Shown one piece after another: positions 16,069 to 53,443 of a DNA stretch of 64,000 nucleotides. The notes beneath the pieces were generated by a model. The model saw only the letters and a list, made by a program, of their open reading frames with translations. It was not told the origin of the DNA and did not search any database. The position numbers and the translations under genes are program-made. Every line of letters starts with the position of its first letter. Within the stretch, counting starts at the first letter, position 1. The stretch comes from Microbacterium sp. BK668 (GTDB taxonomy: Bacteria > Actinomycetota > Actinomycetes > Actinomycetales > Microbacteriaceae). The DNA lies in NCBI RefSeq assembly GCF_004362195.1, contig NZ_SNWG01000001.1, forward strand, positions 1,426,001 to 1,490,000, written 5' to 3'.

Positions 16069-17357
<1,289 letters not shown>

Positions 17358-17361
<4 letters not shown>

Positions 17362-21725: not shown

Positions 21726-22832
21726 GTGCGCGACGACCGGGAGCAGAGGCTCGACCCTCCGACGAGTGCAAGCGCTGGGACCGAGACGAGTGCAGGGACC
21801 GGGACGAGCCCAAGGACCGAGACGAGCCCAGGGACCGGGACGAGCCCAGAAGCCGGCGGCGCGGAGGGGCCGAACGTGGTGCTCCTCGCCGGGGGCGCGG
21901 GCGGATCGACCTTCGCGGTCGGCCTGCGCGACGTCATCGCCGAGCGAGGCGGCCACCTCACCGTCATCTGCAACACCGCCGACGACCTGTGGGTGCACGG
22001 ACTGCGCATCCAGCCCGACGTCGACTCGATGCTCTACGGGCTCGCGGGGGTCAAGGATCGCGAGCGCGGCTGGGGTCGCGCCGGCGACTCGGACCGCGTC
22101 TCGCACGAGCTCGCCGAGTGGGGGCTCGGCTGGGACTGGTTCACCCTCGGCGACCTCGATCTCGGCACTCACATCGCCCGCACCGCCTGGCTCCGCGGCG
22201 GCGTCGACGTCGCCGCGGTCGTGGAGCGCCTCTCCGCCCGTTGGCCGCTCGGTGCGACGCTGCTGCCGATGACCCAGGCCGAGGTCTCGACCTTCGTCGA
22301 TCTCGGCGACGAGACGATCCACTTCCAGGAGTGGTGGACGCGGTATCGGGCGAAGCGCGAGCCGGTCGCGTTCGCGAATCCGGGGATGGATGCCGCGACC
22401 CCGGCCCCCGGCATCCTGGAAGCCCTGGAACAGGCCGACGTGATCGTGCTCGCGCCGTCGAACCCGGTCGTCTCGATCGGCACGATCCTGGCGGTGCCGG
22501 GCGTGCGCGAGGCGATCCTGGCGTCGCCGGCGCCCGTCGTCGGGGTCTCGCCCATCATCGGCGGATCGCCCGTGCGCGGCATGGCCGACGTGTGCTTGCG
22601 CGTCGTCGGAGCCGAGTGCTCCGCGTCCGGCGTCGCCGGCCTGTACGGGGCGCGCGACGACGGCGGACTGCTCGACGCGTGGCTCATCGCGGAGGAGGAC
22701 GCCGGCGAAGCTGCGGCGATCGAGGGGCTCGGCATCCGTCCCGTCGTCCGCCCGCTGTGGATGAGGGACGTCCCGCTCACGCGCGCCCTCGCTTCCGACG
22801 CGCTCGCCGCGGCGGCGACCGCGACGAGCTGA
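21726..22832 (+). CDS. cofD: 2-phospho-L-lactate (phosphoenolpyruvate) transferase
   Basis: A 368-residue enzyme moving the phospholactyl/enolpyruvyl group from its guanosine carrier to FO in F420 synthesis (FbiA/CofD). VVLLAGGAGGSTFAVGL (glycine loop), CNTADDLWVHGLRIQPD, HFQEWWTRYRAKREP and LAPSNPVVSIGTILAVPG are clear. GTG 21726 has TAGGCT 7 nt upstream. The first 50 residues are a Thr/Gly/Ser-rich repeat absent from other FbiA proteins. An internal GTG at 21876, with GGAGGGG before it, would give the usual 318-residue form; the repeats keep frame, so both starts are possible. Confidence 0.93.
   Translation: MRDDREQRLDPPTSASAGTETSAGTGTSPRTETSPGTGTSPEAGGAEGPNVVLLAGGAGGSTFAVGLRDVIAERGGHLTVICNTADDLWVHGLRIQPDVDSMLYGLAGVKDRERGWGRAGDSDRVSHELAEWGLGWDWFTLGDLDLGTHIARTAWLRGGVDVAAVVERLSARWPLGATLLPMTQAEVSTFVDLGDETIHFQEWWTRYRAKREPVAFANPGMDAATPAPGILEALEQADVIVLAPSNPVVSIGTILAVPGVREAILASPAPVVGVSPIIGGSPVRGMADVCLRVVGAECSASGVAGLYGARDDGGLLDAWLIAEEDAGEAAAIEGLGIRPVVRPLWMRDVPLTRALASDALAAAATATS
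21777..21848 (+). repeat. 4 x 18-bp repeat in the cofD 5' region
   Basis: Four units of 18 bp (21777, 21795, 21813, 21831), consensus GGGACCGNGACGAGCCCA. The unit length is a multiple of three and encodes GTETS/GTGTSP-like repeats in the cofD frame. Confidence 0.85.
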
Positions 22833-23000: not shown

Positions 23001-23849
23001 ATGGCTGTAGTTCGAGCGGCGATCACGCAGACGACCTGGACGGGCGACAAAGAGTCCATGCTCGACAAGCACGAGCAGTTCGCGCGGGATGCCGCGGCTC
23101 AGGGAGCGCAGGTCGTGTGCTTCCAGGAGCTGTTCTACGGTCCCTACTTCGGCATCACGCAGGACAAGAAGTACTACCGGTTCGCCGAACCCGCGGACGG
23201 CCCCATCGTGCAGCGATTCGCCGCGCTCGCGAAGGAGCTCGGGCTCGTCTCCGTGCTGCCGATCTACGAAGAGGCCGAGACCGGGGTGTATTACAACACC
23301 TCGGTGCTCGTCGATGCGGACGGCACGATCCTCGGCAAGTACCGCAAGCACCACCTCCCGCACCTCGACCGGTTCTGGGAGAAGTTCTACTTCCGGCCCG
23401 GCAACGTCGGGTACCCGGTCTTCGACACCGCCGTCGGGCGGATCGGGATGTACATCTGCTACGACCGGCACTTCCCCGAAGGCTGGCGAGAGCTGGGCCT
23501 CAACGACGCCCACATGGTCTTCAACCCCAACGCGACGAAGCCCGGTCTGTCGAACCGGCTGTGGGAGATCGAGGGCCCGGCGGCCGCGGTCGCGAACGGC
23601 TACTTCGTGCTGCAGCCCAACCGCGTGGGGCGGGAGGACAACGAGTACGGCGAGCTCGCCGTCGACTTCTACGGCACGAGCCAGGTGATCGACCCGCGCG
23701 GGAACTTCGTCGGCGAGCGCGGATCCGGCGACCACGAGGAACTGCTCGTGCGCGACCTCGAACTCGACATGGTCCGCGAGATGCGCGACGACTGGCAGTT
23801 CTACCGCGATCGCCGGCCGGACTCCTACACGAAGATCGCGCAGCCGTAA
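23001..23849 (+). CDS. beta-ureidopropionase-like carbon-nitrogen hydrolase
   Basis: A 282-residue nitrilase-superfamily enzyme expected to hydrolyse N-carbamoyl-beta-alanine (or an N-carbamoyl amino acid) to amino acid, CO2 and NH3. The catalytic triad is visible: Glu in CFQELFYGPYFG, Lys in YRKHHLPHLDRFWEKFYF, Cys in MYICYDRHFPEGWRELG. ATG 23001 follows GGAGG at 5 nt. First gene of a long operon; 10 bp from the dihydropyrimidinase gene, which makes its substrate. The exact side-chain specificity cannot be read; N-carbamoyl-D-amino acid hydrolase is the alternative. Confidence 0.92.
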   Translation: MAVVRAAITQTTWTGDKESMLDKHEQFARDAAAQGAQVVCFQELFYGPYFGITQDKKYYRFAEPADGPIVQRFAALAKELGLVSVLPIYEEAETGVYYNTSVLVDADGTILGKYRKHHLPHLDRFWEKFYFRPGNVGYPVFDTAVGRIGMYICYDRHFPEGWRELGLNDAHMVFNPNATKPGLSNRLWEIEGPAAAVANGYFVLQPNRVGREDNEYGELAVDFYGTSQVIDPRGNFVGERGSGDHEELLVRDLELDMVREMRDDWQFYRDRRPDSYTKIAQP

Positions 23850-23859
23850 GGAGAGCGCC

Positions 23860-25296
23860 ATGGCCACCACACTCATCAAGGGCGGCACCGTCGTCTCGGC
23901 GACGGGACGCGCCGAGGCCGACGTCCTCATCGACGGCGAGACGATCGTCGCCGTGCTGGCACCCGGCTCGCAGCTGCTCGGGACGGATGTCGCGGCATCC
24001 GTCGACACCGTCCTCGACGCCACCGGCAAGTACGTGATCCCCGGCGGCATCGACGCGCACACGCACATGCAGCTTCCCTTCGGCGGCACCTCTGCCAGCG
24101 ACACCTTCGAGACGGGGACGCGCGCCGCGGCATGGGGCGGCACGACGACGATCATCGACTTCGCCGTGCAGACCTACGGGACGAAGGTGCAGGACGGGCT
24201 CGCGAAGTGGCACGACCTCGCCGCGGGGAACTGCGCCATCGATTACGGCTTCCACCAGATCATCGGCGGGATCGACGATGACTCGCTGAGGTTCATGCCG
24301 GCCCTCATCGACGAGGGCATCACGAGCTTCAAGCTCTTCATGGCGTATCCCGGCGTCTTCTACTCGGACGACGCCCAGGTGCTTCAAGCGATGCAGGTCT
24401 CGCGCGAGACGGGCCTGCTGACGATGATGCACGCCGAGAACGGGCCCGCCATCGACGTGCTCGCCAAGCAGCTCGTCGAGCAGGGCAAGACCTCGCCGTA
24501 CTTCCACGGCGTAGCCCGCGCCTGGCAGATGGAGGAGGAGGCGACGCACCGTGCGATCATGCTCGCCGACGTCACGGGGGCACCGCTGTACGTCGTGCAC
24601 GTGAGCGCCAAGCAGGCCGTCGAGCAGCTCGCGTGGGCTCGCGACAAGGGGCAGAACGTGTTCGGTGAGACGTGCCCGCAGTATCTGTACCTGTCGCTCG
24701 AGGAGCAGCTCGGCGCGTCCAGCGACGAATGGGGCGACTTCGAGGGCGCGAAGTGGGTGTGCTCCACACCGCTGCGCTCGCGCGCGGAGGGCCACCAGGA
24801 CCACATGTGGCAGGCGCTGCGCACCAACGACCTGCAGATGGTCTCGACCGACCACTGCCCGTTCTGCATGAAGGATCAGAAGGAGCTGGGGCTCGGCGAC
24901 TTCCGCAAGATCCCGAACGGCATCGGCTCGATCGAGCACCGCATGGACCTCATGTATCAGGGCGTCGTCACCGGGAAGATCACGCTCGAGCGGTGGGTCG
25001 AGCTCACCTCGACGACGCCGGCGCGCATGTTCGGGCTGTACGGCCGCAAGGGCGTGATCCAGCCGGGTGCCGACGGCGACGTCGTGATCTACGACCCGAA
25101 CGGGCACACGTCGATCGGCCTGGGAAAGACCCACCACATGAACATGGACTACTCCGCATGGGAGGGCTACGAGATCGACGGGCACGTCGACACGGTGCTC
25201 TCGCGCGGCAAGGTGATCGTCGACCACGGCGAGTACCTCGGATCCAAGGGCGACGGCCGCTACCTCAAGCGCGGTCTCTCGCAGTACCTCCAGTGA
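23860..25296 (+). CDS. hydA: dihydropyrimidinase / D-hydantoinase
   Basis: A 478-residue dinuclear zinc amidohydrolase opening dihydropyrimidine or hydantoin rings. Metal ligands are visible: GGIDAHTHMQ (HxH), the Lys of TSFKLFMAYPG (carbamylated in the family), LTMMHAEN, VVHVSAK, and the Asp of MVSTDHCPF. AAGGAG precedes ATG 23860. It lies between the carbamoyl hydrolase and the LLM oxidoreductase, matching steps 1-3 of reductive pyrimidine breakdown. A hydantoin-specific role is possible; sequence alone does not separate the two. Confidence 0.95.
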   Translation: MATTLIKGGTVVSATGRAEADVLIDGETIVAVLAPGSQLLGTDVAASVDTVLDATGKYVIPGGIDAHTHMQLPFGGTSASDTFETGTRAAAWGGTTTIIDFAVQTYGTKVQDGLAKWHDLAAGNCAIDYGFHQIIGGIDDDSLRFMPALIDEGITSFKLFMAYPGVFYSDDAQVLQAMQVSRETGLLTMMHAENGPAIDVLAKQLVEQGKTSPYFHGVARAWQMEEEATHRAIMLADVTGAPLYVVHVSAKQAVEQLAWARDKGQNVFGETCPQYLYLSLEEQLGASSDEWGDFEGAKWVCSTPLRSRAEGHQDHMWQALRTNDLQMVSTDHCPFCMKDQKELGLGDFRKIPNGIGSIEHRMDLMYQGVVTGKITLERWVELTSTTPARMFGLYGRKGVIQPGADGDVVIYDPNGHTSIGLGKTHHMNMDYSAWEGYEIDGHVDTVLSRGKVIVDHGEYLGSKGDGRYLKRGLSQYLQ

Positions 25297-25312
25297 ACGA
25301 AGGCGAGTGACC

Positions 25313-26329
25313 ATGGATTTCGGCGTCGTCCTGCAGACCAACCCGCCCGCCGCGCGGACGGTGCAGCTCGCGAAGCTCGCGGAGGCGCACGGCTTCAGCC
25401 ACGTGTGGACGTTCGACTCGCACCTCCTGTGGGAGGAGCCGTACGTCATCTACTCGGCGATCCTCGCCCAGACGCAGCGGGTCACCGTGGGTCCGTTCGT
25501 GACGAACCCGTCCACCCGGGACTGGACGGTCACGGCATCCGTCTTCGCGACTTTGAACGAGATGTACGGCAATCGCACGATCTGCGGCATCGGCCGGGGC
25601 GATTCGGCCGTGCGCGTCACGAACGGGCAGCCGGCCTCGCTCGCCGAGCTCCGCGAGTCGATCCACGTCATCCGCGAGCTGGGCAACTCGCGTCCCGTCG
25701 AGTACAAGGGCGCGACGCTGCAGTTCCCGTGGAGCCGCGGCTCGTCGCTCGACGTGTGGGTCGCCGCGTACGGTCCGCTCGCCCTCAAGCTCGCGGGGGA
25801 GGTCGGCGACGGCTTCATCCTGCAGCTCGCGGACGTCGACATCGCCGCGTGGATGATCAAGACGGTGAGGGATGCCGCGGCGAACGTCGGCCGCGACCCC
25901 GACGCGCTCGCGTTCTGCGTGGCAGCGCCGATGTACATCGGCACCGACCGGGCGCACATGCGGGACCAGTGCCGCTGGTTCGGCGGGATGGTCGGCAATC
26001 ACGTCGCCGACATCGTGAAGAAGTACGGCCACCACGGCGCGGTGCCCGACGCGCTCACCGACTACATCGCCGGGCGCACCGGATACGACTACAACACCCA
26101 TGGGCGCGCCGACAACGACCACGTCGACTTCGTTCCGGACGAGATCGTCGACCGCTTCTGCATCCTCGGGACCGCCGACGAGCACATCGACAAGCTGCGG
26201 CAGCTGTCGTCTCTCGGTGTGACGCAGTTCGCGGGGTACCTGCAGCATGACAACAAGGAAGAGACGCTGCGGGTCTACGGCGAGCGCGTCATCCCGGCCA
26301 TCGCCGAGCACGTCGCGGCCAAGTCGTGA
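25313..26329 (+). CDS. LLM-class oxidoreductase (F420- or FMN-dependent), TIGR03842-like
   Basis: A 338-residue bacterial-luciferase-like TIM-barrel flavin enzyme. FGVVLQTNPPAARTVQLAKLAE is at the N-terminus, HVWTFDSHLLWEEPYVIYSAI carries the cofactor-edge residues, and TICGIGRGDSAVRVTNGQP is the phosphate loop seen in F420-using relatives. It overlaps the following permease start (GTGA). Its position between dihydropyrimidinase and importer, with F420 synthesis genes downstream, suggests it reduces the pyrimidine ring in place of dihydropyrimidine dehydrogenase. That role is inference; an FMN-dependent role is the alternative. Confidence 0.9.
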   Translation: MDFGVVLQTNPPAARTVQLAKLAEAHGFSHVWTFDSHLLWEEPYVIYSAILAQTQRVTVGPFVTNPSTRDWTVTASVFATLNEMYGNRTICGIGRGDSAVRVTNGQPASLAELRESIHVIRELGNSRPVEYKGATLQFPWSRGSSLDVWVAAYGPLALKLAGEVGDGFILQLADVDIAAWMIKTVRDAAANVGRDPDALAFCVAAPMYIGTDRAHMRDQCRWFGGMVGNHVADIVKKYGHHGAVPDALTDYIAGRTGYDYNTHGRADNDHVDFVPDEIVDRFCILGTADEHIDKLRQLSSLGVTQFAGYLQHDNKEETLRVYGERVIPAIAEHVAAKS

Positions 26330-27294
26330 CCGTGCCGCCCGACACGATCGCCGCGCAGGCGCCGCTGCCGGACGCGATGCTGCCCACGCGCCGCCGCCGC
26401 GCCGGCCGGCGCTCGCGCATGGCGATCGTGTGGGGCGTGCTCGGCGTCGTCGCCGTCGTCGCGCTGTGGGAGCTGTACAAGCTCTTCGGCCCCGCGGAAG
26501 GCGTGGTGGTCGGGGGAACGGGCGAGGCAGGGTCGGGTTTCCTCATCCTGCCGCGCACGCACGACCGGGCCATGCCGCACGTGTGGGACATGGGCGCGCG
26601 CCTGTTCGCGCCGACGAGCGGCGGCGACACCCCTCCGCTGTGGATCACCGTCGTGGCCGCGGGGCTCGTCACGCTCGGGATCGCCGCGGTCGGGTGGGCG
26701 CTCGGCGTGGTGGTCGGAGCAGTCCTCGGGGCGCTCATGCAGCGCTGGCGCCTGGCCGAGTGGGGACTCCTGCCGTGGATCGTCGTCAGCCAGACCGTGC
26801 CGCTCATCGCCTTCGCGCCCGTCGTGAACGCGATCGGCAACCAGATAGACCGCGATGTCGCGCCGTGGCCGCAATGGCTCTCGGTGGCGATCATCGCGTC
26901 GTATCTCGCGTTCTTCCCGGTCGCCATCGGGATGCTGCGCGGGCTCTCCGCGCCGGACCGCATCCATCTCGACCTCATGCGCACATACGCGGCCGGCTAC
27001 TGGTCGACGCTGTTCCGCCTGCGCCTGCCCGCCGCCGTGCCGCATCTCCTCCCCGCGCTGCGTCTGGCCGCGGCGAGCGCCGTCGTCGGTGCCGTGGTCG
27101 CAGAGGTGTCGATCGGCATGCGCGGTGGGATCGGGCGGATGCTCATCCAGCTTGCGGGGCAGGCCTCCAGCGATCCCGCCGCTCCCTGGGGACCCACATT
27201 CGGAACCATCGGCCTGGGACTGATCGCGGCGTCCGCGATCGCGGTGCTCGGCTGGACACTGTCGAACTACCGCCGAGGCGAGGAGAACGGATGA
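26326..27294 (+). CDS. ABC importer permease (SsuC/ThiX type)
   Basis: A 322-residue membrane protein with about six helices (first at MAIVWGVLGVVAVVALWELY) and the EAA-like loop DLMRTYAAGYWSTLFRLRLP. A hydrophilic stretch after helix 1 is longer than usual. GTG 26326 overlaps the LLM stop. With 28115-28894 it forms a hetero-dimeric channel for the binding protein at 28957. Confidence 0.92.
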   Translation: MTVPPDTIAAQAPLPDAMLPTRRRRAGRRSRMAIVWGVLGVVAVVALWELYKLFGPAEGVVVGGTGEAGSGFLILPRTHDRAMPHVWDMGARLFAPTSGGDTPPLWITVVAAGLVTLGIAAVGWALGVVVGAVLGALMQRWRLAEWGLLPWIVVSQTVPLIAFAPVVNAIGNQIDRDVAPWPQWLSVAIIASYLAFFPVAIGMLRGLSAPDRIHLDLMRTYAAGYWSTLFRLRLPAAVPHLLPALRLAAASAVVGAVVAEVSIGMRGGIGRMLIQLAGQASSDPAAPWGPTFGTIGLGLIAASAIAVLGWTLSNYRRGEENG

Positions 27295-28118
27295 CCCTTC
27301 CACCGTCCGGCACAGGGCCGGGGCCCTCGGCGGTCAGGGCCGTGACGGCGTCCGGCGTGGGCAAGGTGTTCGCGACGAAGGCCGCCGACGTCGTGGCGCT
27401 GACCGACGTCGAACTCGAGGTCGCGGCGGGGGAGTTCGTCTCTCTCATCGGCCCCTCCGGGTGCGGAAAGTCCACGCTGCTGCGCCTCATCGCCGACCTC
27501 GACGAACCCACGACGGGCCGGCTCGAGATCTTCGGCAAGCCGGCTCAGCGCGCCCGCCTCGACCAGGACTACGGCATCGCGTTCCAGCAGGCCGGGCTCC
27601 TGCCGTGGCGCACGGTGTCGGCGAACATCGTCCTGCCTCTGGAGCTGCAGGGGACGGGGAAGGACGAGCGCGCCGCGCGCGTGCGCGAACTCGTCGATCT
27701 CGTGGGCCTGCGCGAGTTCGCCGACCGCTATCCCGATCAGCTCTCCGGAGGCATGCAGCAGCGCGTCGCCATCGCGCGAGCCCTCGCCGCGCGGCCGCGA
27801 CTGCTGCTCATGGACGAGCCGTTCGGGGCACTCGACGAGATGACGCGCGAATATCTGCAGGTCGAGCTCGCGCGCATCGCCGCCGAGACCGGGGCGGCGG
27901 TGGTCTTCGTCACCCACTCCATCCCCGAGGCGGTCTTCCTGTCCGACCGCGTCGTGGTCATGAGCCCGCGGCCGGGCCGCATCACGGATGTGCTGCCGAC
28001 GGGTCTCGGACCGGTGCGCGACGACGCCCTCCGCGAGTCGCCCGGGTTCTTCGAACGGGTCACGGCAGTGCGCGAGGCCCTGCACGGCGCGCCGGTCGAG
28101 AGGGCGAACGAGCGATGA
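27291..28118 (+). CDS. ABC importer ATP-binding protein (SsuB/ThiZ type)
   Basis: A 275-residue ATPase. Walker A GPSGCGKSTLL, the Q-loop IAFQQAGLLPWRTV, signature LSGGMQQRVAIARALA, Walker B LLMDEPFGALDEMT and the switch His in FVTHSIPEA. It overlaps both neighbours (ATGA on each side), so the three transporter genes are translated as a unit. Confidence 0.95.
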   Translation: MTLPPSGTGPGPSAVRAVTASGVGKVFATKAADVVALTDVELEVAAGEFVSLIGPSGCGKSTLLRLIADLDEPTTGRLEIFGKPAQRARLDQDYGIAFQQAGLLPWRTVSANIVLPLELQGTGKDERAARVRELVDLVGLREFADRYPDQLSGGMQQRVAIARALAARPRLLLMDEPFGALDEMTREYLQVELARIAAETGAAVVFVTHSIPEAVFLSDRVVVMSPRPGRITDVLPTGLGPVRDDALRESPGFFERVTAVREALHGAPVERANER

Positions 28119-28894
28119 CCTCCGTCGCGGCGGCGCGCCCCCTGCCTTCGTGGCTGCGCTGGGTCGCGCCCCTCGCGGTCGGCCTGATCGGCCTCGCGCT
28201 GTGGGCGCTGTGGGTCGCCTCCGGCACCGCGCCGCGCATGCTCCCCAGTCCGCTGGCGATCCTCGAGGAGTTCGTGCTGCGCTGGAACATCATCGCGGCA
28301 GACATGGCGATCACGGCGACGAACGCCCTCGTCGGCCTGATCGCCGGAACAGTGATCGGCATCGTCCTGGCCGGGCTCGCAGCATCCGTCAGAGCAGTCG
28401 ACGGGATGCTGGCGCCGCTCGTGGCCGCGATCGCGGTCGTGCCGATCGTGGCCATCACGCCGATCCTCAACACGATGTTCGGCGCGTCGAGTCAGTTCGG
28501 CCGGCAGGCGGTCGCCGCCATCGCCGCGTTCATCCCGGTCTTCGTGAATGTCCTGCGGGGACTCCGCCAGTCCCGGCCGGTGCATCGCGACCTCTTCCGC
28601 GCGTCCGCCGCGACGAACGCGCAGACCTTCCGATCGCTCACCCTTCCCACGGCTCTGCCGTATCTCATGACCGGGCTGCGGATCGCCGCATCCGTCGCCG
28701 TCATCTCAGCGCTCGTCGCCGAGTACTTCGGGGGCCCGGCCGATGGTGTGGGCACGGCGATCGCGACCTACGCGAAGTCCGGACGCGCCGCCCTCGCGTG
28801 GGCGTACGTGTTCGGCGGCATCCTCATCGGTCTCGCATTCTTCCTCGTGACCTCCGTATTGGAGCGGATCGTCATCAGGAGACCGCCGGCTTAG
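28115..28894 (+). CDS. ABC importer permease (SsuC/ThiX type)
   Basis: A 259-residue second permease with about six helices and the EAA-like loop DLFRASAATNAQTFRSLTLP. Starts in the stop of the ATPase gene. Smaller than the partner permease and without its extra loop, consistent with a heterodimer. Confidence 0.93.
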   Translation: MTSVAAARPLPSWLRWVAPLAVGLIGLALWALWVASGTAPRMLPSPLAILEEFVLRWNIIAADMAITATNALVGLIAGTVIGIVLAGLAASVRAVDGMLAPLVAAIAVVPIVAITPILNTMFGASSQFGRQAVAAIAAFIPVFVNVLRGLRQSRPVHRDLFRASAATNAQTFRSLTLPTALPYLMTGLRIAASVAVISALVAEYFGGPADGVGTAIATYAKSGRAALAWAYVFGGILIGLAFFLVTSVLERIVIRRPPA

Positions 28895-28956
28895 CCGGCA
28901 TCGGCGGCGGGCGGCACCGACCGCGGCCAGGGGCACCATCACAGGAAGGGATCAGC

Positions 28957-30132
28957 ATGAGACACAGCATCCGACGGGGCCTCGCGCTCGCGTCCACCGT
29001 CGCCGTGGCGGCCCTCGCGCTCGCCGCGTGCTCCGCTTCGGGTTCGCCCGACTCGACCGGGGGCGCGGAAGGCGACTTCGAGCCGCTCACCGACATCTCG
29101 CTGCAGCTGCAATGGCTCCCGCAGGCGCAGTTCGCCGGCTACTACGTCGCGCAGGAGAAGGGATACTTCGAGGAAGAGGGGTTCGACAACGTCGACATCG
29201 TCCCCTCCGGCGGCGATATCGTGCCGCAGGACGCCCTCGTCGCCGGCGATGTCGACTTCGCCGTCGCCTGGGTGCCGAAGGTGCTCGGGACGCTCGAGGC
29301 GTCCGGCGTGGAGCTCACCGACATCGCCCAGGTGTTCCAGAAGTCCGGCACGCTCCAGGTCGCGTGGAAGGACTCCGGCATCAGCGACGTGGCCGACTTC
29401 GAGGGGAAGAGGATCGGCTCGTGGGGATTCGGCAACGAGTGGGAGATCTTCGCCGCGATGGCCGCCGAGGGCCTGGACTCGACCAGCGTGTCGATCACGA
29501 CGCAGGACTTCTCGATGAACGCGCTGCTCGACCGCGACGTCGACGCCGCGCAGGCGATGACCTACAACGAGTGGGCGCAGATCCTCGAGGTCGTGAACCC
29601 CGAGACGGGTGAGCTTTACACCTCCGAGGACTTCGACGTCATCTCCTACGAGGACACCGAGGGAGCGATGCTGCAGGACGCCCTGTGGGCAGACACGCAG
29701 CGCCTCGCGGACGACCCCGCCTACGCCGACGCCGCGGTGCGATTCCTCAAGGCGGTCACGAAGGGCTGGCTGTTCGCGCGGGACAATCCGGAGGAGGCGG
29801 CGGAGATCGTCTACGACATCGCTTCCAACGCCGAGGCGGCCTTCCCGGTCGGCCCCGTCCACCAGCTCTGGCAGATGAACGAGGTCAACAAGCTCATCTG
29901 GACGGGCGCAGACTTCGGCGTCATCGACCAGGCCGCGTGGGACAAGACCGTGGAGGGAGCGCTCGCGGCGGTCAATCAGGACGGCCTCAATCTCATCACC
30001 GCCGAGCCCTCCGACACCGCCTTCTCGAACGAGTACATCGAGAAGGCGCTCGCCGAGCTGGCCGATGAGGGGGTCGACGTGTCGGGCGAGTACACGCCGA
30101 TCGAGGTCGCGCTCACCGAGGGCGGCCAGTAG
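28957..30132 (+). CDS. NMT1/THI5-like ABC substrate-binding lipoprotein
   Basis: A 391-residue lipoprotein; lipobox LAAC near residue 25. ISLQLQWLPQAQFAGYYVAQEKG is the hallmark opening of NMT1/THI5-like proteins (ThiY, RibY), many of which bind pyrimidine-like ligands; PSGGDIVPQDALVAGDVDF follows. GGAAGGG precedes ATG 28957. With the upstream permeases and ATPase it forms an importer whose likely ligand is the pyrimidine or hydantoin degraded by this operon (inference from context and family). Confidence 0.93.
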   Translation: MRHSIRRGLALASTVAVAALALAACSASGSPDSTGGAEGDFEPLTDISLQLQWLPQAQFAGYYVAQEKGYFEEEGFDNVDIVPSGGDIVPQDALVAGDVDFAVAWVPKVLGTLEASGVELTDIAQVFQKSGTLQVAWKDSGISDVADFEGKRIGSWGFGNEWEIFAAMAAEGLDSTSVSITTQDFSMNALLDRDVDAAQAMTYNEWAQILEVVNPETGELYTSEDFDVISYEDTEGAMLQDALWADTQRLADDPAYADAAVRFLKAVTKGWLFARDNPEEAAEIVYDIASNAEAAFPVGPVHQLWQMNEVNKLIWTGADFGVIDQAAWDKTVEGALAAVNQDGLNLITAEPSDTAFSNEYIEKALAELADEGVDVSGEYTPIEVALTEGGQ

Positions 30133-30147
30133 AAGGGATGCCGCGTC

Positions 30148-30187
30148 TCCGGTCGCTGAGTGAGCTGCGCCTCGCCCAGCGACCGGA
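30148..30187 (+). repeat. intra-operon hairpin, REP-like
   Basis: TCCGGTCGCTG (30148-30158) and CAGCGACCGGA (30177-30187) form an 11-bp stem between the binding-protein gene and the aminotransferase gene. The GGTCGCTGAGTGAGC part resembles the GGTCGTTGAGCGAGC block of the repeats in fbiC. It may protect the upstream mRNA 3' end or reduce read-through. Confidence 0.65.
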
Positions 30188-30222
30188 GGTTTCGATCCCA
30201 CAGTGCACCCGGGAGGGGGAGA

Positions 30223-31569
30223 ATGGCCGACATGACTCTGAGCGAACAGTCCACGGACCTCGACGGTCTCGCCGCCGAGCTCGACCGCGAGTACGTCTTC
30301 CACTCGTGGTCCGCGCAGGCGTCGCTCTCACCCATTGTCATCGCCGGCGGTTCGGGCAGCGTCGTATGGGATCACGGGGGAAAGCGATACCTCGACTTCT
30401 CCAGCCAGCTCGTCAACGTCAACATCGGGCACCAGCATCCGGCCGTCATCGACGCCATCCACCGGCAGGCCGACCTGCTCGCCACCGTCGGCCCCGCCGC
30501 CGCGAACCTCACGCGCGGGGAGGCGGCCAAGCGCATCGTCGCCCGCGCCCCCGAGGGATTCTCGAAGGTCTTCTTCACCAACGGAGGCGCCGACGCCATC
30601 GAGAACGCCATCCGCATGGCGCGGCTGCACTGTGCGGCACGTGGCGACGTGGGCCGCGACAAAGTCCTCTCGACGTACCGGTCGTACCACGGCAACACCG
30701 GGGCCGCGATCGTCGCCACGGGTGACTGGCGACGGATGCCGAACGAGTTCGCCCGCGGACACGTGCACTTCTTCGGGCCCTACCTGTACCGCTCCGAGTT
30801 CTGGGCGACGACGCCGGAACAGGAGAGCGAGCGTGCGCTGCAGCACCTTCGCCGCGTCATCCAGTCCGAGGGCCCCGCAACGATCGCGGCGATCCTGCTC
30901 GAGTCCGTTCCCGGCACCGCCGGGATCCTCCTGCCGCCGCCCGGATACCTCGCGGGCGTCCGAGCGCTCGCCGACGAGTTCGGGATCCTCCTGATCCTCG
31001 ACGAGGTCATGGCCGGATTCGGCCGCACGGGGCGCTGGTTCGCCTTCGAGGGGTACGACGTCGTGCCCGACCTCATCACCTTCGCCAAGGGCGTCAACTC
31101 CGGCTACGTGCCGGTCGGAGGCGTGGTGATCTCCGAGCCGATCGCGGCGACGTTCGACGACCGCGTGTTCCCCGGCGGTCTCACCTACAGCGGGCACCCG
31201 CTCGCGGCGGCGTCGATCGTCGGCGCGCTGGACGCGATGGAATCGGAGGGGATCGTCGAGAACGCCCGTCGTGTGGGCGCGGAGAAGATCGGCCCCGGGC
31301 TGCTCGAGCTCGCCGAGAAGCATGCCGCCATCGGCGAGGTCCGCGGCGAGGGCGTCTTCTGGGCGCTCGAGCTCGTCGCCGACCGCACCACACGCGACCC
31401 GCTCCCGGCCGCCGCGGTCGCGAAGGTGAAAGGCGAGCTCGTCGCACGGGGCCTTCTTCCGTTCCAGGCCGACAACCGCATCCACGTCGTGCCGCCGTGC
31501 GTCGTCACGGACGACGAGGTCGACCAGGCCCTCGCGATCTACGACGAAGCGTTCGCGGCGGCGCTCTGA
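30223..31569 (+). CDS. class III aminotransferase (beta-alanine/omega-amino acid type)
   Basis: A 448-residue PLP enzyme. ANLTRGEAAKRIVARAPEGF and FFTNGGADAIENAIRMAR form the PLP phosphate site; LILDEVMAGFGRTGRW is the PLP-pyridine Asp motif; the Schiff-base Lys is in LITFAKGVNSGYVPVGG. GGGAGGGGGA precedes ATG 30223. In this operon it would convert beta-alanine (or 3-aminoisobutyrate) to the semialdehyde, the step after carbamoyl removal. Substrate assignment is from context. Confidence 0.93.
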   Translation: MADMTLSEQSTDLDGLAAELDREYVFHSWSAQASLSPIVIAGGSGSVVWDHGGKRYLDFSSQLVNVNIGHQHPAVIDAIHRQADLLATVGPAAANLTRGEAAKRIVARAPEGFSKVFFTNGGADAIENAIRMARLHCAARGDVGRDKVLSTYRSYHGNTGAAIVATGDWRRMPNEFARGHVHFFGPYLYRSEFWATTPEQESERALQHLRRVIQSEGPATIAAILLESVPGTAGILLPPPGYLAGVRALADEFGILLILDEVMAGFGRTGRWFAFEGYDVVPDLITFAKGVNSGYVPVGGVVISEPIAATFDDRVFPGGLTYSGHPLAAASIVGALDAMESEGIVENARRVGAEKIGPGLLELAEKHAAIGEVRGEGVFWALELVADRTTRDPLPAAAVAKVKGELVARGLLPFQADNRIHVVPPCVVTDDEVDQALAIYDEAFAAAL

Positions 31570-31573
31570 GCGC

Positions 31574-33949
31574 GTGCTGCCGATGCGTCCACCGACGTCG
31601 GTGTCGTCCCTTTCGGTCGATGAAGCCGAGCGGCTGCTCGGAGCCGCCGACCTCGACGAGCTGCTTGCGCGTGCGTCAGCCGTGCGCGACGAGGGCCTCC
31701 GGGCGGCGGGCCGGCCGGGGGTCATCACATACTCGCGCAAGGTCTTCGTGCCGCTGACGACCCTGTGCCGCGACCGCTGCCACTACTGCGTGTTCGTCGA
31801 CACGCCGGGTCAGCTGCGACTCAAGCGCGCACCGCTGTACATGTCGGACGAGCAGATCCTCCGCGTGGTCCGAGCCGGTCACCACTCCGGCTGCAAGGAA
31901 GCGCTGCTGACCCTGGGCGACCGCCCCGAGGACCGGTGGCCCGAGGCGCGCGCCTGGCTCACCGAGCACGGCTTCGCCTCGACGCTCGACTACGTCGGGC
32001 ACGCCGCCCGGCTCATCACCGCCGAGACCGGATTGCTCGCGCATCTCAACCCGGGCGTCATGACCGCGGCCGAGCTGCGCGAGCTCCGGCCGACCGCCCC
32101 CTCGATGGGCATGATGCTCGAGACGACGTCCCGCGCGATCTACGACCAGCCGGGCGGTGCGCACTACGGCTCGCCCGACAAGGACCCGGACGTGCGACTG
32201 CGGGTGCTCGACGACGCCGGGGCGGCCGGCATCCCGTTCACGACCGGCATCCTCGTCGGCATCGGCGAGACGGTTCGCGACCGGGCGGAGTCGCTCGTCG
32301 CCCTGCGGGACGTGGCCGAGCGCCACGGGCACGTGCAGGAGGTCATCGTCCAGAACTTCCGCGCAAAGCCCGGGACGGCGATGCGGGGGGTGCCGGATGC
32401 CGCGCTCCGCGAGTACATCGCGACGGTCGCCGTCGCCCGGCTGGTCCTCGGAGCGCACATGCGCATCCAGGCGCCGCCGAATCTGAGCGACCCGGCCGAG
32501 CTCGAGCTGCTCGTGCGCGCGGGCGTGGACGACTGGGGCGGGGTGTCGCCCCTGACCGCCGACCACGTGAACCCCGAGCGCCCGTGGCCGCACCTCGACG
32601 ACCTCGCCGCGCTGACGGCGGCCTCGGGCTTCGAGCTCCGGGAGCGCCTGACGGCGCACCCGGAGTACGTCCGCGATGCCGATCGCTGGATCGACCCGGC
32701 GCTGCACACCGCGGTCGAGCGGCTGGCCGATCGCGGAACGGGCCTCGCGGCGAGGGATGCCTCGTCCGAGCGGGGCGGGGCGGTCGAGGGGAGTGGTTCC
32801 TCCCGGTCGTTGAGCGAGCGGAGCGAGACGGTCGAGGGCGGGGATTCTTCCCGGTCGTTGAGCGAGCGGAGCGAGACGAAACGCGCTGAGCCCGCCAGAA
32901 AGCGCCTTGTCGAGCAGGCAGCGCAGGACCCGCGGAGTCTCGACCCGGCGGAGTGGGCGGCGCTGCTCACCGCGACCGGCGCCGACCTCGATGCGCTCGT
33001 CCGCACCGCCGACGACGTCCGGCGCTACACCGTCGGCGAGGCGGTCAGCATGGTCGTCAACCGCAATCTGACGTCCTCGCATCTGCGCCGGACACCCGGC
33101 GAGCCGCCCGAGTTCGGGCTCACGGACGCCGAGGCGATCGCCCGTGATGCCGTCGACCTCGGCGCGACCGAGATCTGCGTGCAGGGTCTCCTCCCGGCAT
33201 CCGAAGATCCCGAGGGCTATCTCGACCTCGCCCGCGCCATCGCCGCCGCCGCGCCGAGCGTGCACCTGCACGCCTACCGTCCGCAGGACATCGCGGACCT
33301 GTCCGACCGGGCCGGCCTCGGCCTGAACGAGGCGCTCGCCGCGCTGCGGTCGGCCGGCGTGAAGACGGTTCCCGGCACGGGGGTCAAGATCCTCAGCGAG
33401 CGCGTGCGTCTCGAGGTCGCGCCGGGCGACCTCGAGATCGACCGCTGGATCGAGACGATCACGCACGCGCACCGCGCCGGCTTCCGCTCGACGTCGGTGA
33501 TCTTCTACGGCTCCGTCGAGACGGCGGAGGAGCGGATCGCCCACCTCGGACTCCTCCGCCGCATCCAGGACGAGACAGGCGGCTTCACGGAGTTCGTGCC
33601 GATCCCGCTGCCCGGCCACGGCGTGCCGCTCGTCGACGCCCGCTCGGCGACCGACGAGCACCGGGCGATGGTCGCCGTGTCGCGGCTCTTCTTCGCCGAC
33701 AGCATCCGGCACATCCAGATCCCGTGGACCCGGCACGGGCGCGATCTCGCGGTCGATCTCCTCGGCGCGGGGGGCGATGATCTCGGCGGGACGCTCCTCG
33801 ACGGGCGCGTGCTGCCCGAGGCCGGCATCGAGCACGGTCTCGAGTTCCCGTTCGCCGAGGCGTCCGCCCGCGTCGGAAGACTCTTCCGGCCGCTCCGGGA
33901 GCGGTCCACCGACTACCGGGAGATCCCGCGCAAGGCGGCCGCGTCATGA
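31574..33949 (+). CDS. fbiC: FO synthase FbiC (CofG-CofH fusion) with degenerate CofH half
   Basis: A 791-residue fusion expected to make the deazaflavin FO from tyrosine and a ribityl-aminopyrimidine using two radical-SAM centres. The CofG half has CRDRCHYC (C65, C69, C72: CX3CX2C). The CofH half is recognisable (VVNRNL near 494, GATEICVQG, TGGFTEFVPIPLPG, GAGGDDLGGTL) but the CX3CX2C that should follow NRN is absent; the segment reads LTSSHLRRTPGEPPEFG, with no Cys. Residues ~403-434 between the halves are a 2 x 16 repeat. The start is GTG 31574, 4 bp after the previous stop; ATG 31583 is possible. Confidence 0.9.
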   Translation: MLPMRPPTSVSSLSVDEAERLLGAADLDELLARASAVRDEGLRAAGRPGVITYSRKVFVPLTTLCRDRCHYCVFVDTPGQLRLKRAPLYMSDEQILRVVRAGHHSGCKEALLTLGDRPEDRWPEARAWLTEHGFASTLDYVGHAARLITAETGLLAHLNPGVMTAAELRELRPTAPSMGMMLETTSRAIYDQPGGAHYGSPDKDPDVRLRVLDDAGAAGIPFTTGILVGIGETVRDRAESLVALRDVAERHGHVQEVIVQNFRAKPGTAMRGVPDAALREYIATVAVARLVLGAHMRIQAPPNLSDPAELELLVRAGVDDWGGVSPLTADHVNPERPWPHLDDLAALTAASGFELRERLTAHPEYVRDADRWIDPALHTAVERLADRGTGLAARDASSERGGAVEGSGSSRSLSERSETVEGGDSSRSLSERSETKRAEPARKRLVEQAAQDPRSLDPAEWAALLTATGADLDALVRTADDVRRYTVGEAVSMVVNRNLTSSHLRRTPGEPPEFGLTDAEAIARDAVDLGATEICVQGLLPASEDPEGYLDLARAIAAAAPSVHLHAYRPQDIADLSDRAGLGLNEALAALRSAGVKTVPGTGVKILSERVRLEVAPGDLEIDRWIETITHAHRAGFRSTSVIFYGSVETAEERIAHLGLLRRIQDETGGFTEFVPIPLPGHGVPLVDARSATDEHRAMVAVSRLFFADSIRHIQIPWTRHGRDLAVDLLGAGGDDLGGTLLDGRVLPEAGIEHGLEFPFAEASARVGRLFRPLRERSTDYREIPRKAAAS
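32781..32876 (+). repeat. 2 x 48-bp repeat inside fbiC linker
   Basis: Two 48-bp copies (32781-32828, 32829-32876), both beginning CGGTCGAGGG and sharing GGTCGTTGAGCGAGCGGAGC. They encode two 16-residue repeats ending SSRSLSERSE. The following bases (GAGACGAAACGC) complete the dispersed element also seen at 6786-6811, so an intergenic repeat seems to have inserted in frame. Confidence 0.88.
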
Positions 33950-35442
33950 CACGCCGGCTCGGCGTAGCCATCGTCGGGGCCGGCTTCGCGGGCCTCGCCG
34001 CCGCGATGACCCTGCGCGACGCCGGCCACGACATCGCGGTGTTCGAGCGCGCCGACCGCGTCGGCGGCACATGGCGCGACAACACCTACCCCGGCGTCGC
34101 CTGCGACGTTCCGTCCCACCTCTACGGCTTCGCCCGGCATCCCGAGCCCTCCTGGTCGGCGGAATTCGCGCCGGGTGCCGAGATCCAGGCCTATCTCGAG
34201 CGGGTCGTCGACCGGGAGCGGCTCGACGACCGCATCACGTTCGGCGCCCCCCTCATCGACGCCGGCTGGCACGAGGATGCCGGGATCTGGCGCCTCTCGT
34301 TCGGCGGCGCTTCGCCGTTCGACGTGGACGCCGAGGCGCTCGTCCTCGCGTGCGGCCGGCTGAGCGAGCCGCGCATCCCCGACGTGGCGAACCTCGAGGC
34401 GTTCCGCGGGCCGCTGTTCCACTCCGCCCGCTGGGACCACGGGGTCGATCTCGTCGGCGCCCACGTGGCCGTCGTCGGTTCCGGTGCGAGCGCCGTGCAG
34501 CTGGTGCCGCAGCTCGCGCGCACCGCCTCGAAGGTCACGCTGTTCCAGCGGAGCGCCGCGTGGATCATGCCGCGCGGCGGCCGGCCGTTCTCGCCGGCGG
34601 AGCGGGCGCGGTTCGCCGCGAATCCGGACGAGCTCGCGCGACTGCGCGCTCAGCTGGACGCCGAGGGAGAAGCGCGGTTCCCCTCGCGCTCGGGCGGACC
34701 CGGGGCCGTCGAGGCCGAGACGGTCGCGCGCGCCCATCTCGCCGCACAGGTCGCCGACCCGCGGCTGCGCGCGACCCTCACCCCGGACTATGCGTTCGGG
34801 TGCAAGCGCGTGCTGCTGTCGGACGAGTTCTACCCGGCGGTGGCGTCGGATCGGGTCGTCCTCGAGCCGAGCGCGCTCGCCGCCGTCGACGATGGCGAGC
34901 TGATCGCGGCATCGGGGAGCCGTCACCGGGGGGTCGACGCGCTCGTGCTGGCGACCGGGTTCCAGACGACGCGCCAGCCGTACGCGCGGCTCGTCCGAGG
35001 CGAGAACGGCGTCACGCTGGGGGAGCACTGGGCCGGCGGCATGACGTCGTTCGGATCGACCGTCGTAGCCGGCTTCCCGCAGCTGTTCGTGCTGAACGGG
35101 CCGAACGCATCGCTCGGTCACACGTCGTCGATCCTCATGCTCGAGGCGCAGGCCGAGTACGTGGCGAAGGCGCTCGCCCGTCGCGCGGGCGGGGGAGTGC
35201 TGCGGGTCCGGCCCGAGGCCGAGCGGGCGTATACGAGGATGGTGGACGAGCGCGCCGCGGGAACGCCGTGGCTGACGGGCGGATGTCGCAACTGGTACGT
35301 CGACGACCGCTCGCGCCGGCTCACCCTGGTGTGGCCGGGCACGGTCGCCGACTACCGGGCGGCCCTCGCCGCGAGCGGCGGTCGGGAGTTCGAGACCGCG
35401 CCGGCGGTCGCCGTGGATGCACAGGAGAGGTCGGGATCATGA
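33946..35442 (+). CDS. Baeyer-Villiger-type flavin monooxygenase
   Basis: A 498-residue class B flavoprotein. GAGFAGLAAAMTLRDAG is the FAD-binding Rossmann loop, GGTWRDNTYPGVACDVPSHLY follows as in BVMOs, FRGPLFHSARWD matches the fingerprint FxGxxxHxxxW[PD], and VVGSGASAVQLVPQL is the NADPH-binding loop. It overlaps fbiC (ATGA) and fgd (ATGA). Its substrate is unknown; oxidation of a ring-derived carbonyl or of an alternative nitrogen heterocycle is conceivable. Confidence 0.9.
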   Translation: MTRRLGVAIVGAGFAGLAAAMTLRDAGHDIAVFERADRVGGTWRDNTYPGVACDVPSHLYGFARHPEPSWSAEFAPGAEIQAYLERVVDRERLDDRITFGAPLIDAGWHEDAGIWRLSFGGASPFDVDAEALVLACGRLSEPRIPDVANLEAFRGPLFHSARWDHGVDLVGAHVAVVGSGASAVQLVPQLARTASKVTLFQRSAAWIMPRGGRPFSPAERARFAANPDELARLRAQLDAEGEARFPSRSGGPGAVEAETVARAHLAAQVADPRLRATLTPDYAFGCKRVLLSDEFYPAVASDRVVLEPSALAAVDDGELIAASGSRHRGVDALVLATGFQTTRQPYARLVRGENGVTLGEHWAGGMTSFGSTVVAGFPQLFVLNGPNASLGHTSSILMLEAQAEYVAKALARRAGGGVLRVRPEAERAYTRMVDERAAGTPWLTGGCRNWYVDDRSRRLTLVWPGTVADYRAALAASGGREFETAPAVAVDAQERSGS

Positions 35443-36449
35443 CGGTACCCATCCGGTTCGGCTACAAGGCATCGGCGGAGCAGTTCGGTCCGGCCGAGCT
35501 GCTCGATTACGCGATCATGGCCGAAGAGGCCGGGTTCGACTCGGTCTTCGTGTCCGACCACCTGCAGCCCTGGCTGCACGAGGGCGGCCACGCCCCGGCA
35601 TCCGTCCCCTGGCTCGGGGCGCTCGGCGGCAAGACGTCGCGCGTCCTCATCGGCACGTCCGTGCTGACCCCGACCTTCCGCTACAACCCGACGGTCGTCG
35701 CGCAGGACTTCGCGACCCTCGGCGTCATGTACCCCGGGCGCGTGATCCTCGGCGTGGGCACCGGCGAGGCGCTCAACGAGGCGAACCTCGGCATCGCGTG
35801 GCCCGATCCTCCGGAGCGGTTCCGGCGGCTCAAAGAGGCGATCGGCCTCATCCGGCGGCTGTGGTCGGAGGACCGCGTCAACTTCGAGGGCGAGTTCTAC
35901 ACGACCCGCAACATCACGATCTACGACAAGATGGACGACCCGGTGCCTATCTACATTGGCGCCGCCGGGCCTGCCGCCACGCGTCTGGCCGGCCGCATCG
36001 CCGACGGCTTCATCACCACGAGCGGCAAGAAGCGCGAGCTCTACACCGACACCCTGCTGCCCGCGCTCCGTGAGGGGCTGGAGAAGGCCGGGCGATCCGA
36101 AGACGACCTCGACACGCTGATCGAGATCAAGGTGTCGTACCACCCGCGGCGCGACGTGGCGCTGGAGAAGACGCGGTTCTGGGCCCCGCTCGCCCTGAGC
36201 CCCGAGGAGAAGATGGGCGTCGACGACCCCCTCGAGATGCAGAGGCTCGGCGAGGAGCTGCCGATCGAGCGCGCCGCCTCGCGCTTCATCGTCTCGGACG
36301 ACCCCGAGGAGCACATCGAGCGCATCGCGTGGTACGTGTCGCTCGGGTTCCGGCACCTGGTCTTCCACGACCCGGGGCACGATCAGGCGGAGTTCCTGCG
36401 GCTGTACGGCGAGCACGTGCTGCCGCGGCTGCGCGAGCGGTTCTCGTGA
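35439..36449 (+). CDS. fgd: F420-dependent glucose-6-phosphate dehydrogenase
   Basis: A 336-residue LLM enzyme that reduces F420 with glucose 6-phosphate. It aligns along its length with mycobacterial Fgd1 (336 residues): FGYKASAEQFGPAELL, SDHLQPWLHEGGHAP with His41 and Trp45, SVLTPTFRYNPTVVAQ, LGVGTGEALNE with Glu110 (the catalytic His40/Glu109 pair shifted by one), and TRFWAPLALSPEEK. It is coupled by ATGA and GTGA overlaps to the monooxygenase and cofC, and supplies F420H2 to the LLM enzyme upstream. Confidence 0.96.
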   Translation: MTVPIRFGYKASAEQFGPAELLDYAIMAEEAGFDSVFVSDHLQPWLHEGGHAPASVPWLGALGGKTSRVLIGTSVLTPTFRYNPTVVAQDFATLGVMYPGRVILGVGTGEALNEANLGIAWPDPPERFRRLKEAIGLIRRLWSEDRVNFEGEFYTTRNITIYDKMDDPVPIYIGAAGPAATRLAGRIADGFITTSGKKRELYTDTLLPALREGLEKAGRSEDDLDTLIEIKVSYHPRRDVALEKTRFWAPLALSPEEKMGVDDPLEMQRLGEELPIERAASRFIVSDDPEEHIERIAWYVSLGFRHLVFHDPGHDQAEFLRLYGEHVLPRLRERFS

Positions 36450-37060
36450 CGGGCTGGACCGTCGTCCTGCCGGTCAAGGCGGCGGTGCGGGCGAAGTCGC
36501 GGCTCGCCCGCGGGCCCGAGCTCGCCCGCGCGATCGCCCTGGACACGATCGAGGCGGTGGGCGCGTGCGGGACCGTCGGGCAGGTGGTGGTGGTGACGGA
36601 TGACGCAGAGCTCGAGGCATCCCTCCCCCCCGGCGCGCGCATGGTCGCCGACCGGGCCCGAGTGGGCCCGAACGCGGCGATCCTCAAGGTGATGGCCGGG
36701 CTGGCGGCGTCGGCTCCCCGCGCCGCCCTCCTCGCCGACCTGCCCGCCCTGCGCTCGCCAGACCTCGCGGCCGCGCTGGAGGCGGCCACGATGGTCGAGC
36801 GGGCAGTGGTCCCGGATGCCGAGGGCACCGGTTCGACGCTCGTCACCGCCGCGGCCGGGGCGGCGTGGGCCTCGGCCTTCGGCGCGAACTCGTTCGCACG
36901 CCATCTGGAGCTCGGCTGCGTGGCGCTGGAGGTTCCGGCCTATTCGTCGCTCCGACGCGACGTCGACACGGCGGAGCACCTCGCCGCCGCCGAGGTGCTC
37001 GGCCTCGGGCGGTGGACGTCGGCCTCCCTGCGTCCTGCCGGCGCTCCCGCCGGTCGTTGA
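36446..37060 (+). CDS. cofC: 2-phospho-L-lactate/PEP guanylyltransferase
   Basis: A 204-residue nucleotidyltransferase (CofC/FbiD) that activates phospholactate or phosphoenolpyruvate with GTP for CofD. WTVVLPVKAAVRAKSRLA is the GTP-binding N-terminus, VVVVTDDAEL and AALLADLPALRSPDL follow (the LPAL motif), and TGSTLVTAAAG and RRDVDTAEHL are conserved. GTG 36446 overlaps the fgd stop. Last gene of the operon. Confidence 0.94.
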   Translation: MTGWTVVLPVKAAVRAKSRLARGPELARAIALDTIEAVGACGTVGQVVVVTDDAELEASLPPGARMVADRARVGPNAAILKVMAGLAASAPRAALLADLPALRSPDLAAALEAATMVERAVVPDAEGTGSTLVTAAAGAAWASAFGANSFARHLELGCVALEVPAYSSLRRDVDTAEHLAAAEVLGLGRWTSASLRPAGAPAGR

Positions 37061-52024: not shown

Positions 52025-52070
52025 CGCACGACCCCCACCCCGACAGGGGACCAAGAAAGGAGTGCCGAAG

Positions 52071-53375: not shown

Positions 53376-53382
53376 CCGACCC

Positions 53383-53414
53383 GCGGGGGCGGCGCCTCGC
53401 CGCGCCGCCCCCGC
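53383..53414 (+). terminator. hairpin between binding-protein and permease genes
   Basis: GCGGGGGCGGCG (53383-53394) pairs with CGCCGCCCCCGC (53403-53414): 12 bp. Such elements lower permease expression relative to the binding protein in ABC operons. Confidence 0.7.
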
Positions 53415-53443
53415 CCGACGCACGGAGCCTGACGGAGTCCACC

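Follow-up and report, generated by a model that had tools for sequence, protein, structure and literature searches.

The reductive pyrimidine (Pyd) pathway starts, in its canonical form, with an NAD(P)H-dependent dehydrogenase, PydA/PreAT. PydAc of Clostridium chromiireducens is a ferredoxin-dependent enzyme of the DHO_dh family with flavin mononucleotide (FMN) and ferredoxin domains (PMC7332683), a coenzyme F420-dependent yanthine reductase is predicted from uric acid clusters of Chloroflexota (PMC12507026) and, based on genetic and nuclear magnetic resonance evidence, a putative F420/FMN oxidoreductase, SSGG-03002/NpsU, reduces uracil in mureidomycin/napsamycin biosynthesis (PMC10714638). 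The 64-kb stretch of DNA analysed here (the window; contig NZ_SNWG01000001.1, positions 1,426,001 to 1,490,000) is from the 3.73 Mb genome of Microbacterium sp. BK668, assembled in 7 contigs and rated 100% complete, and contains a twelve-gene cluster that appears to encode a Pyd pathway with a predicted non-homologous, F420-type first enzyme. The candidate is a luciferase-like monooxygenase (LLM) family protein that belongs to TIGR03842, and we estimate a probability of about three in four that it is an F420H2-dependent dihydropyrimidine dehydrogenase that replaces PydA in the reductive pathway. Among the titles and abstract openings listed by full-text searches of an open-access library, none describes an F420-linked pathway of pyrimidine breakdown, and no paper with TIGR03842 or CPS_4043 was found; these searches leave subscription journals mostly outside and so do not prove absence.

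The reductase step and its candidate enzyme

The initial annotation proposed that every Pyd step except the usual NAD(P)H dehydrogenase is encoded in the cluster, with the LLM gene in its slot, and family scans assign the genes to the families that it named. It also named a separate pydA-type dehydrogenase as a finding that would speak against the proposal, and none was found in the BK668 genome. The only DHO_dh match is the quinone-dependent PyrD, so that a PydA/PreA encoded elsewhere in the genome was rejected. At E ≤ 1e-40, PreA is absent from all 149 Microbacterium genomes sampled, BK668 included; the same model does find matches in 7 of the 14 control genomes, including E. coli. The RutA pathway was also rejected, as the seven matches to TIGR03612 in BK668 reach 71 bits at best, compared with a cut-off of 498, and none of them falls at the LLM gene. 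With PyrD as the single DHO_dh protein and no RutA over cut-off, two known enzymes that attack the pyrimidine ring were therefore both not found, and the predicted pathway is otherwise Pyd-like without its canonical first enzyme.

The LLM protein covers TIGR03842 over the full length of the model (positions 1-329 of 329), with the start of the family corresponding to an ATG at position 25313 of the window. TIGR03842 is a 'hypoth_equivalog' family, named by model only, after Colwellia CPS_4043, and has no assigned reaction. The predicted structure of the LLM (predicted local distance difference test score 88) has its best structural matches in the F420-dependent Mer, which is also its nearest solved relative by sequence. 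The closest structures are F420 enzymes, and the LLM may bind F420 rather than FMN. Membership of the Mer family itself was rejected (TIGR03555, 135 bits against a cut-off of 349; NF002619, 133 against 276). The best 80 of 590 confirmed relatives all have actinobacterial titles, and the best named among these are Microbacterium proteins with up to 90% identity. An alignment of 16 actinobacterial LLM sequences has 84 invariant positions. Invariant residues include W224-F225, N231-H232 and Y260-D261-Y262.

Co-occurrence was evaluated in the 149 Microbacterium genomes, 296 genomes from the phylum Actinomycetota and the 14 controls, with thresholds of E ≤ 1e-100 for dihydropyrimidinase and E ≤ 1e-30 for cofD. 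An LLM gene is present in 59 of the Microbacterium genomes. A dihydropyrimidinase is encoded in 58 of these, compared with 3 of the 90 genomes without an LLM (Fisher p 1.7e-36, phylogeny ignored), and the sole exception, G338, is 88% complete. The corresponding counts for cofD are 56/59 and 26/90 (Fisher p 6.6e-17, phylogeny ignored). Across the phylum, an LLM scores over cut-off in 62 of 296 genomes, and in none of the controls, and cofD is present in 58 of the 62 compared with 106 of the 234 LLM-negative genomes (p 4.0e-13, phylogeny ignored). PreA is over cut-off in only two of the 296, neither of which has an LLM over cut-off; a further 58 have PreA matches under cut-off and one of these (G237) has an LLM. 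With just two PreA genomes, the mutual exclusion of PreA and LLM in the phylum sample is not significant by itself and is illustrative only. In genome G208, one of these rare actinobacterial PreA proteins (691 bits; locus L204, 9299-10513) has genes for an M20 carbamoylase and a hydantoinase next to its own; PreA here occupies the reductase position of a classically arranged Pyd locus.

Gene neighbourhoods of the LLM gene

Stretches of up to 20 kb around the LLM gene were compared, by tblastn at E ≤ 1e-10, in 40 of the 62 LLM-positive phylum genomes; for the neighbour families that were added, one representative of each was identified. Comparable loci came from 17 of the 58 LLM-positive Microbacterium genomes other than BK668, and from the best 80 of the 590 confirmed relatives, a set biased to close relatives in which some stretches end at contig ends. 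Both a hydantoinase and a carbamoylase (CN-hydrolase or M20 type) are encoded in 32 of the 40 phylum loci, although some of these matches have only 41-45% identity, and 37 loci have one or both; of the three loci with neither (L062, L067 and L068), the last two are shortened by contig ends. M20-like carbamoylases are present in 13 of the 40 loci, NCS1- or methylmalonate-semialdehyde dehydrogenase (MMSDH)-like proteins are encoded in 27 and NCS1-like symporters in 19. In the best 80 of the 590 relatives, a hydantoinase gene lies within 300 bp of the LLM gene in all 80, a CN-hydrolase gene is present in 79, an MMSDH gene in 29, and one or more of cofC, cofD, cofE and fbiC in 40. A gene resembling a MocR-type (GntR-aminotransferase) regulator is present in 51 of these 80 loci, often upstream of the CN-hydrolase gene; in the window, the 168-bp gap between cofD and the CN-hydrolase gene leaves no room for one.

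Within Microbacterium, a hydantoinase gene adjoins the LLM gene in 17/17 loci, MMSDH is present in 11/17 and fbiC in 1/17. This last locus (L188), from a second species, repeats the layout of the window at 50-86% protein identity, with cofE-cofD upstream, fbiC-bvmo-fgd-cofC downstream, and a MocR-type gene and an MMSDH gene (668 bits) in between. In Diaminobutyricibacter (L092), fgd-bvmo-fbiC are divergent, beside the pyrimidine operon. Chance adjacency was rejected, as the core recurs beside the LLM gene in many genera and L188 has the same layout. A single operon that includes the F420 genes was also rejected as a general design, given the one congener locus with fbiC. F420 genes are thus rarely inside the operon, with the window and one of the 17 congeners as the cases seen; 'one operon' is therefore less general than the pathway.

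A parallel arrangement is present on plasmids outside the actinobacteria. In Leisingera caerulea, cofG-cofH-cofD-cofC-cofE-npdG and a TIGR03842 gene form one plasmid-borne array, and divergent from it are genes for an NCS1 symporter, a dihydropyrimidinase (615 bits) and both transhydrogenase subunits. The divergent group also encodes a Zn hydrolase of the carbamoylase family (TIGR01879, 401 bits; cut-off 204) and an aminotransferase over the cut-off for the AptA omega-aminotransferase. We infer that NADH, transhydrogenase, NADPH, NpdG, F420H2 and LLM would here form, in this order, a supply line for the reduction. A Paracoccus alcaliphilus plasmid has the same F420 array with TIGR03842 at its end, and no hydantoinase gene in the 29 kb analysed. 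The Leisingera and Paracoccus LLM proteins retain 69 and 72, respectively, of the 84 actinobacterial invariant positions. By coordinates, npdG adjoins the LLM gene in 11 of 11 LLM-bearing Rhodobacterales plasmid records; the 13 plasmid records also include one from a Streptomyces and one with a 34% match, from Rhodococcus.

Three further plasmids carry related sets of genes. Plasmid 3 of Variovorax sp. PBL-E5 (L207, 4315-14874) encodes an amidohydrolase, a CN-hydrolase, an LLM, NpdG and CofGHDCE. This LLM reaches 203 of the 295 bits set as cut-off for TIGR03842, the amidohydrolase is dihydropyrimidinase/allantoinase-like, under cut-offs, and the set likely specifies a sister pathway in which F420 serves to reduce a different heterocycle. 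An Agrobacterium rubi plasmid (L206) and pSymA of Sinorhizobium meliloti (L208) each have an F420 array and a TIGR03619-like LLM. Aminotransferases are encoded alongside in L206, and an ArgE/DapE deacylase and a 'dihydroorotase' nearby in L208; both loci hint at additional pathways in which F420 is linked to ring opening.

Layout and proteins of the window

The twelve genes, all on the + strand, span positions 23001-37060, as established from gene boundaries and family scans; several gene starts are choices among alternative start codons. The eleven junctions, in order, measure 10, 10, -4, -4, -4, 62, 90, 4, -4, -4 and -4 bp, so that six overlap and the range is -4 to +90 bp. The cofD gene, on the same strand, ends 168 bp before the start of the CN-hydrolase gene, with cofE divergent from cofD. 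A dipeptidyl-peptidase gene follows the operon at 37118, after 57 bp. No terminator-like site was found in any of the eleven junctions; those on the + strand are all inside fbiC and the total of four is at the level of shuffled sequence (mean 3.2). No promoter-like site was found. The same-strand run with gaps of -4 to ~90 bp, the gene identities and the adjoining cofD and cofE were all described in the initial annotation and stand after the family scans (Table 1).

Table 1. Genes of the cluster and the adjoining cofE and cofD; scores are given with the cut-off of the model.
Product	Coordinates	Strand	Basis
CofE coenzyme F420-0:L-glutamate ligase	20920..21687	-	TIGR01916 236 bits, cut-off 181
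CofD (FbiA) 2-phospho-L-lactate transferase	21726..22832, start uncertain	+	TIGR01819 290 bits, cut-off 257
CN-hydrolase, predicted N-carbamoyl-beta-amino acid hydrolase (PydC function)	23001..23849	+	PF00795
Dihydropyrimidinase/D-hydantoinase (PydB function)	23860..25296	+	TIGR02033 547 bits, cut-off 393
LLM oxidoreductase, predicted F420H2-dependent dihydropyrimidine dehydrogenase	25307..26329	+	TIGR03842 582 bits, cut-off 295
ATP-binding cassette (ABC) importer permease 1	26326..27294	+	PF00528
ABC importer ATPase	27291..28118	+	PF00005
ABC importer permease 2	28115..28894	+	PF00528
NMT1/THI5-type substrate-binding protein	28957..30132	+	PF09084 123 bits
Class III aminotransferase	30223..31569, alternative start 30160	+	PF00202; NF004718 731 bits, cut-off 472
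FbiC (CofGH) FO synthase	31574..33949	+	TIGR03550 468 bits, cut-off 213
Baeyer-Villiger-type flavin adenine dinucleotide (FAD) monooxygenase	33946..35442	+	motif FRGPLFHSARW; partial match to solved Baeyer-Villiger monooxygenases (BVMOs)
F420-dependent glucose-6-phosphate dehydrogenase (FGD)	35439..36449	+	TIGR03554 448 bits, cut-off 420
CofC guanylyltransferase	36446..37060	+	TIGR03552 113 bits, cut-off 105, scanned from 36329

The dihydropyrimidinase exceeds the cut-off of an equivalog model, and its matches among solved structures are D-hydantoinases (best E 1.1e-135). For the CN-hydrolase, the nearest solved structures are an N-carbamoylputrescine amidohydrolase and beta-ureidopropionases. 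An MMSDH gene is not part of the operon, and one copy over cut-off is present elsewhere in the genome. The set for F420 biosynthesis and recharging is represented by the CofG half of FbiC, CofC, CofD, CofE and FGD, all over cut-off; two scores of FbiC are under cut-off, that of its CofH half (TIGR03551, 296 bits against 374) and that for the model of the whole protein (NF006687, 898 bits against 1018). The FAD protein has, at residue 153, a match to the Baeyer-Villiger motif FxGxxxHxxxW, and its best stretch of similarity to solved BVMOs extends over residues ~5-237 of 498. Three genomes have a BVMO-like gene flanked by fbiC and fgd, namely in the window, in L188 (16833-18248, 57% identity to that of the window) and in L092 (3521-4972, 51%), and based on this position the enzyme may have a link to F420 or to the substrate of the catabolic genes.

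Elsewhere in the window, ARAGORN places a tRNA-Ala (cgc) at 16179-16272, inside a glycosyltransferase-like gene (16069-17361, - strand); at 94 bases it is unusually long and possibly a false call. At 52062-57590, genes for an alpha-xylosidase (1159 bits) and a sugar-binding ABC protein suggest an unrelated cluster for xyloside use.

Proposed pathway, alternatives and described systems

In the proposed pathway, the NMT1-type ABC importer, whose binding protein is predicted to have a pyrimidine or related heterocycle as ligand, would take up the pyrimidine. With F420H2 as hydride donor, the LLM would reduce its C5-C6 double bond, giving dihydrouracil or dihydrothymine; uracil and thymine are the substrates favoured by the neighbouring genes. 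The dihydropyrimidinase would then open the ring, the CN-hydrolase would cleave N-carbamoyl-beta-alanine or N-carbamoyl-beta-aminoisobutyrate, and the class III aminotransferase is predicted to remove the remaining amino group from beta-alanine or beta-aminoisobutyrate. MMSDH, encoded in the operon in relatives and elsewhere in this genome, would process the carbon skeleton. FbiC, CofC, CofD and CofE would make F420, and FGD is predicted to regenerate F420H2 with glucose-6-phosphate. Gene content and order, family membership, co-occurrence and the absence of a rival dehydrogenase from the matches are observed, whereas the cofactor, the substrate and the direction of each reaction are inferred. 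Replacement of the NAD(P)H dehydrogenase by an F420-type LLM, as put forward in the initial annotation, is supported because neither PreA/PydA nor RutA was found in the genome, because the LLM co-occurs with F420 synthesis in both the genus and the phylum sample and, in the genus, also with dihydropyrimidinase, and by the parallel arrangement on alphaproteobacterial plasmids.

Several observations weigh against this assignment. The co-occurrence statistics are Fisher tests that ignore phylogeny. As 26 of the 90 LLM-negative congeners have cofD, F420 serves other enzymes too, and the PreA genome G208 also has cofD, so that an F420 maker can use PreA. Four of the 62 LLM-positive phylum genomes, assemblies of 220-580 contigs, have no cofD match. 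Only 15 of the 40 phylum loci have a hydantoinase gene within 300 bp of the LLM gene and none has an F420-synthesis gene within 20 kb; in G268 and G225, cofD lies ~11-12 kb from the LLM gene, just outside the 20-kb stretch. The best family score of the CN-hydrolase is for N-carbamoylputrescine amidase, below cut-off, the nearest solved structure to the aminotransferase is a taurine:2-oxoglutarate aminotransferase (6jix, E 1.8e-102), and the residue at the position of Mer Glu6 is not Glu in the LLM. Two Microbacterium genomes, G308 (100% complete) and G415 (99%), have a whole catabolic operon, LLM and hydantoinase included (loci L186 and L187), and no cofD match at E ≤ 1e-30; cofG over cut-off is also absent, with one 21-bit match in G308 and none in G415. 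Their LLMs are intact at all 84 family-invariant positions tested. The F420 genes may have been lost recently, F420 may be supplied otherwise or another cofactor may serve, and in view of these two genomes F420 may not be strictly required. A further genome without cofD, G426, has cofG and is 72% complete.

An LLM that depends on FMN, as a RutA-like oxygenase or a reductase, with its association with F420 an accident of shared ecology, would accommodate G308 and G415; given that the closest structures to the LLM are F420 enzymes, we regard this as quite improbable. The least probable of the readings considered is that the substrates of the cluster are N-carbamoyl compounds or rings that are already saturated, such as hydantoins and dihydropyrimidines, and that the LLM catalyses a separate oxidation in which F420 is reduced. 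A D-hydantoinase with an N-carbamoyl hydrolase constitutes the classical hydantoinase process, and a TIGR02033 protein is present in the three LLM-negative Microbacterium genomes noted above, the two that were fetched being 40-43% identical to that of the window. However, the LLM and dihydropyrimidinase occur together in the genus and, because the partners present reduce F420 (FGD here, NpdG and transhydrogenase in Leisingera), F420H2 is most readily seen as being consumed.

The same logic and cofactor could also be applied to another unsaturated ring, for example a hydantoin or a pyrimidine that is 5-substituted or derived from a purine, which F420H2 would reduce ahead of the hydantoinase. 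Hydantoinases and dihydropyrimidinases are promiscuous enzymes, the importer may have another ligand, and the Variovorax plasmid combines npdG and cofGHDCE with genes for its sub-cut-off LLM, an amidohydrolase and a CN-hydrolase; the putative F420 LLM proposed for yanthine reduction in Chloroflexota (PMC12507026) would be another such case. The MMSDH-like genes (29 of the best 80 of 590 relatives, 11/17 genus loci) and NCS1-like symporters (19/40 phylum loci) fit thymine and uracil, however, and TIGR02033 is a dihydropyrimidinase equivalog, making a different ring unlikely.

Reduction of uracil or thymine by F420H2 is thus the reading we prefer, and if it is correct the missing first enzyme of pyrimidine breakdown is named for many actinobacteria, a textbook pathway gains a new electron donor and protein fold, and TIGR03842, a family without an assigned reaction, receives a function. 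To our knowledge, few F420 functions are known in aerobic soil bacteria, and F420 would gain a role in their ordinary nitrogen metabolism. With an LLM over cut-off in 62 of the 296 sampled Actinomycetota genomes and PreA in two, we lean towards the broader view that TIGR03842 constitutes a new class of dihydropyrimidine dehydrogenase, free of Fe-S clusters and dependent on F420H2, that provides a main actinobacterial route. F420 synthesis would then have reached Rhodobacterales plasmids with TIGR03842 as an adjoining client, and the pairing of an F420-LLM ring reductase with a cyclic amidohydrolase would recur as a module by which N-heterocycles are opened.

Among described enzymes, Mer is the nearest solved relative of the LLM; the two are 21-28% identical in fold alignments, and the LLM is far below the Mer cut-offs and does not conserve Glu6. 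Likened by description and not by sequence, SSGG-03002/NpsU differs in acting on an antibiotic substrate, in biosynthesis, with no in vitro activity obtained (PMC10714638), and the Chloroflexota yanthine reductase is similarly a PF00296 protein for which replacement of a reductase of the DHO_dh type or YgfK is proposed, whereas its substrate is purine-derived and its activity a prediction only (PMC12507026). PydAc likewise belongs to a Pyd cluster in which uracil is reduced with electrons from a different source, but is a DHO_dh-family enzyme, whereas TIGR03842 has the LLM fold (PMC7332683). With the Pyd pathway that employs PydA/PreAT, the locus shares a clustered dihydropyrimidinase, carbamoylase-type hydrolase and aminotransferase, and in relatives the semialdehyde dehydrogenase; it differs in that BK668, in which no PreA/PydA was found, has an F420-type LLM in the reductase slot.

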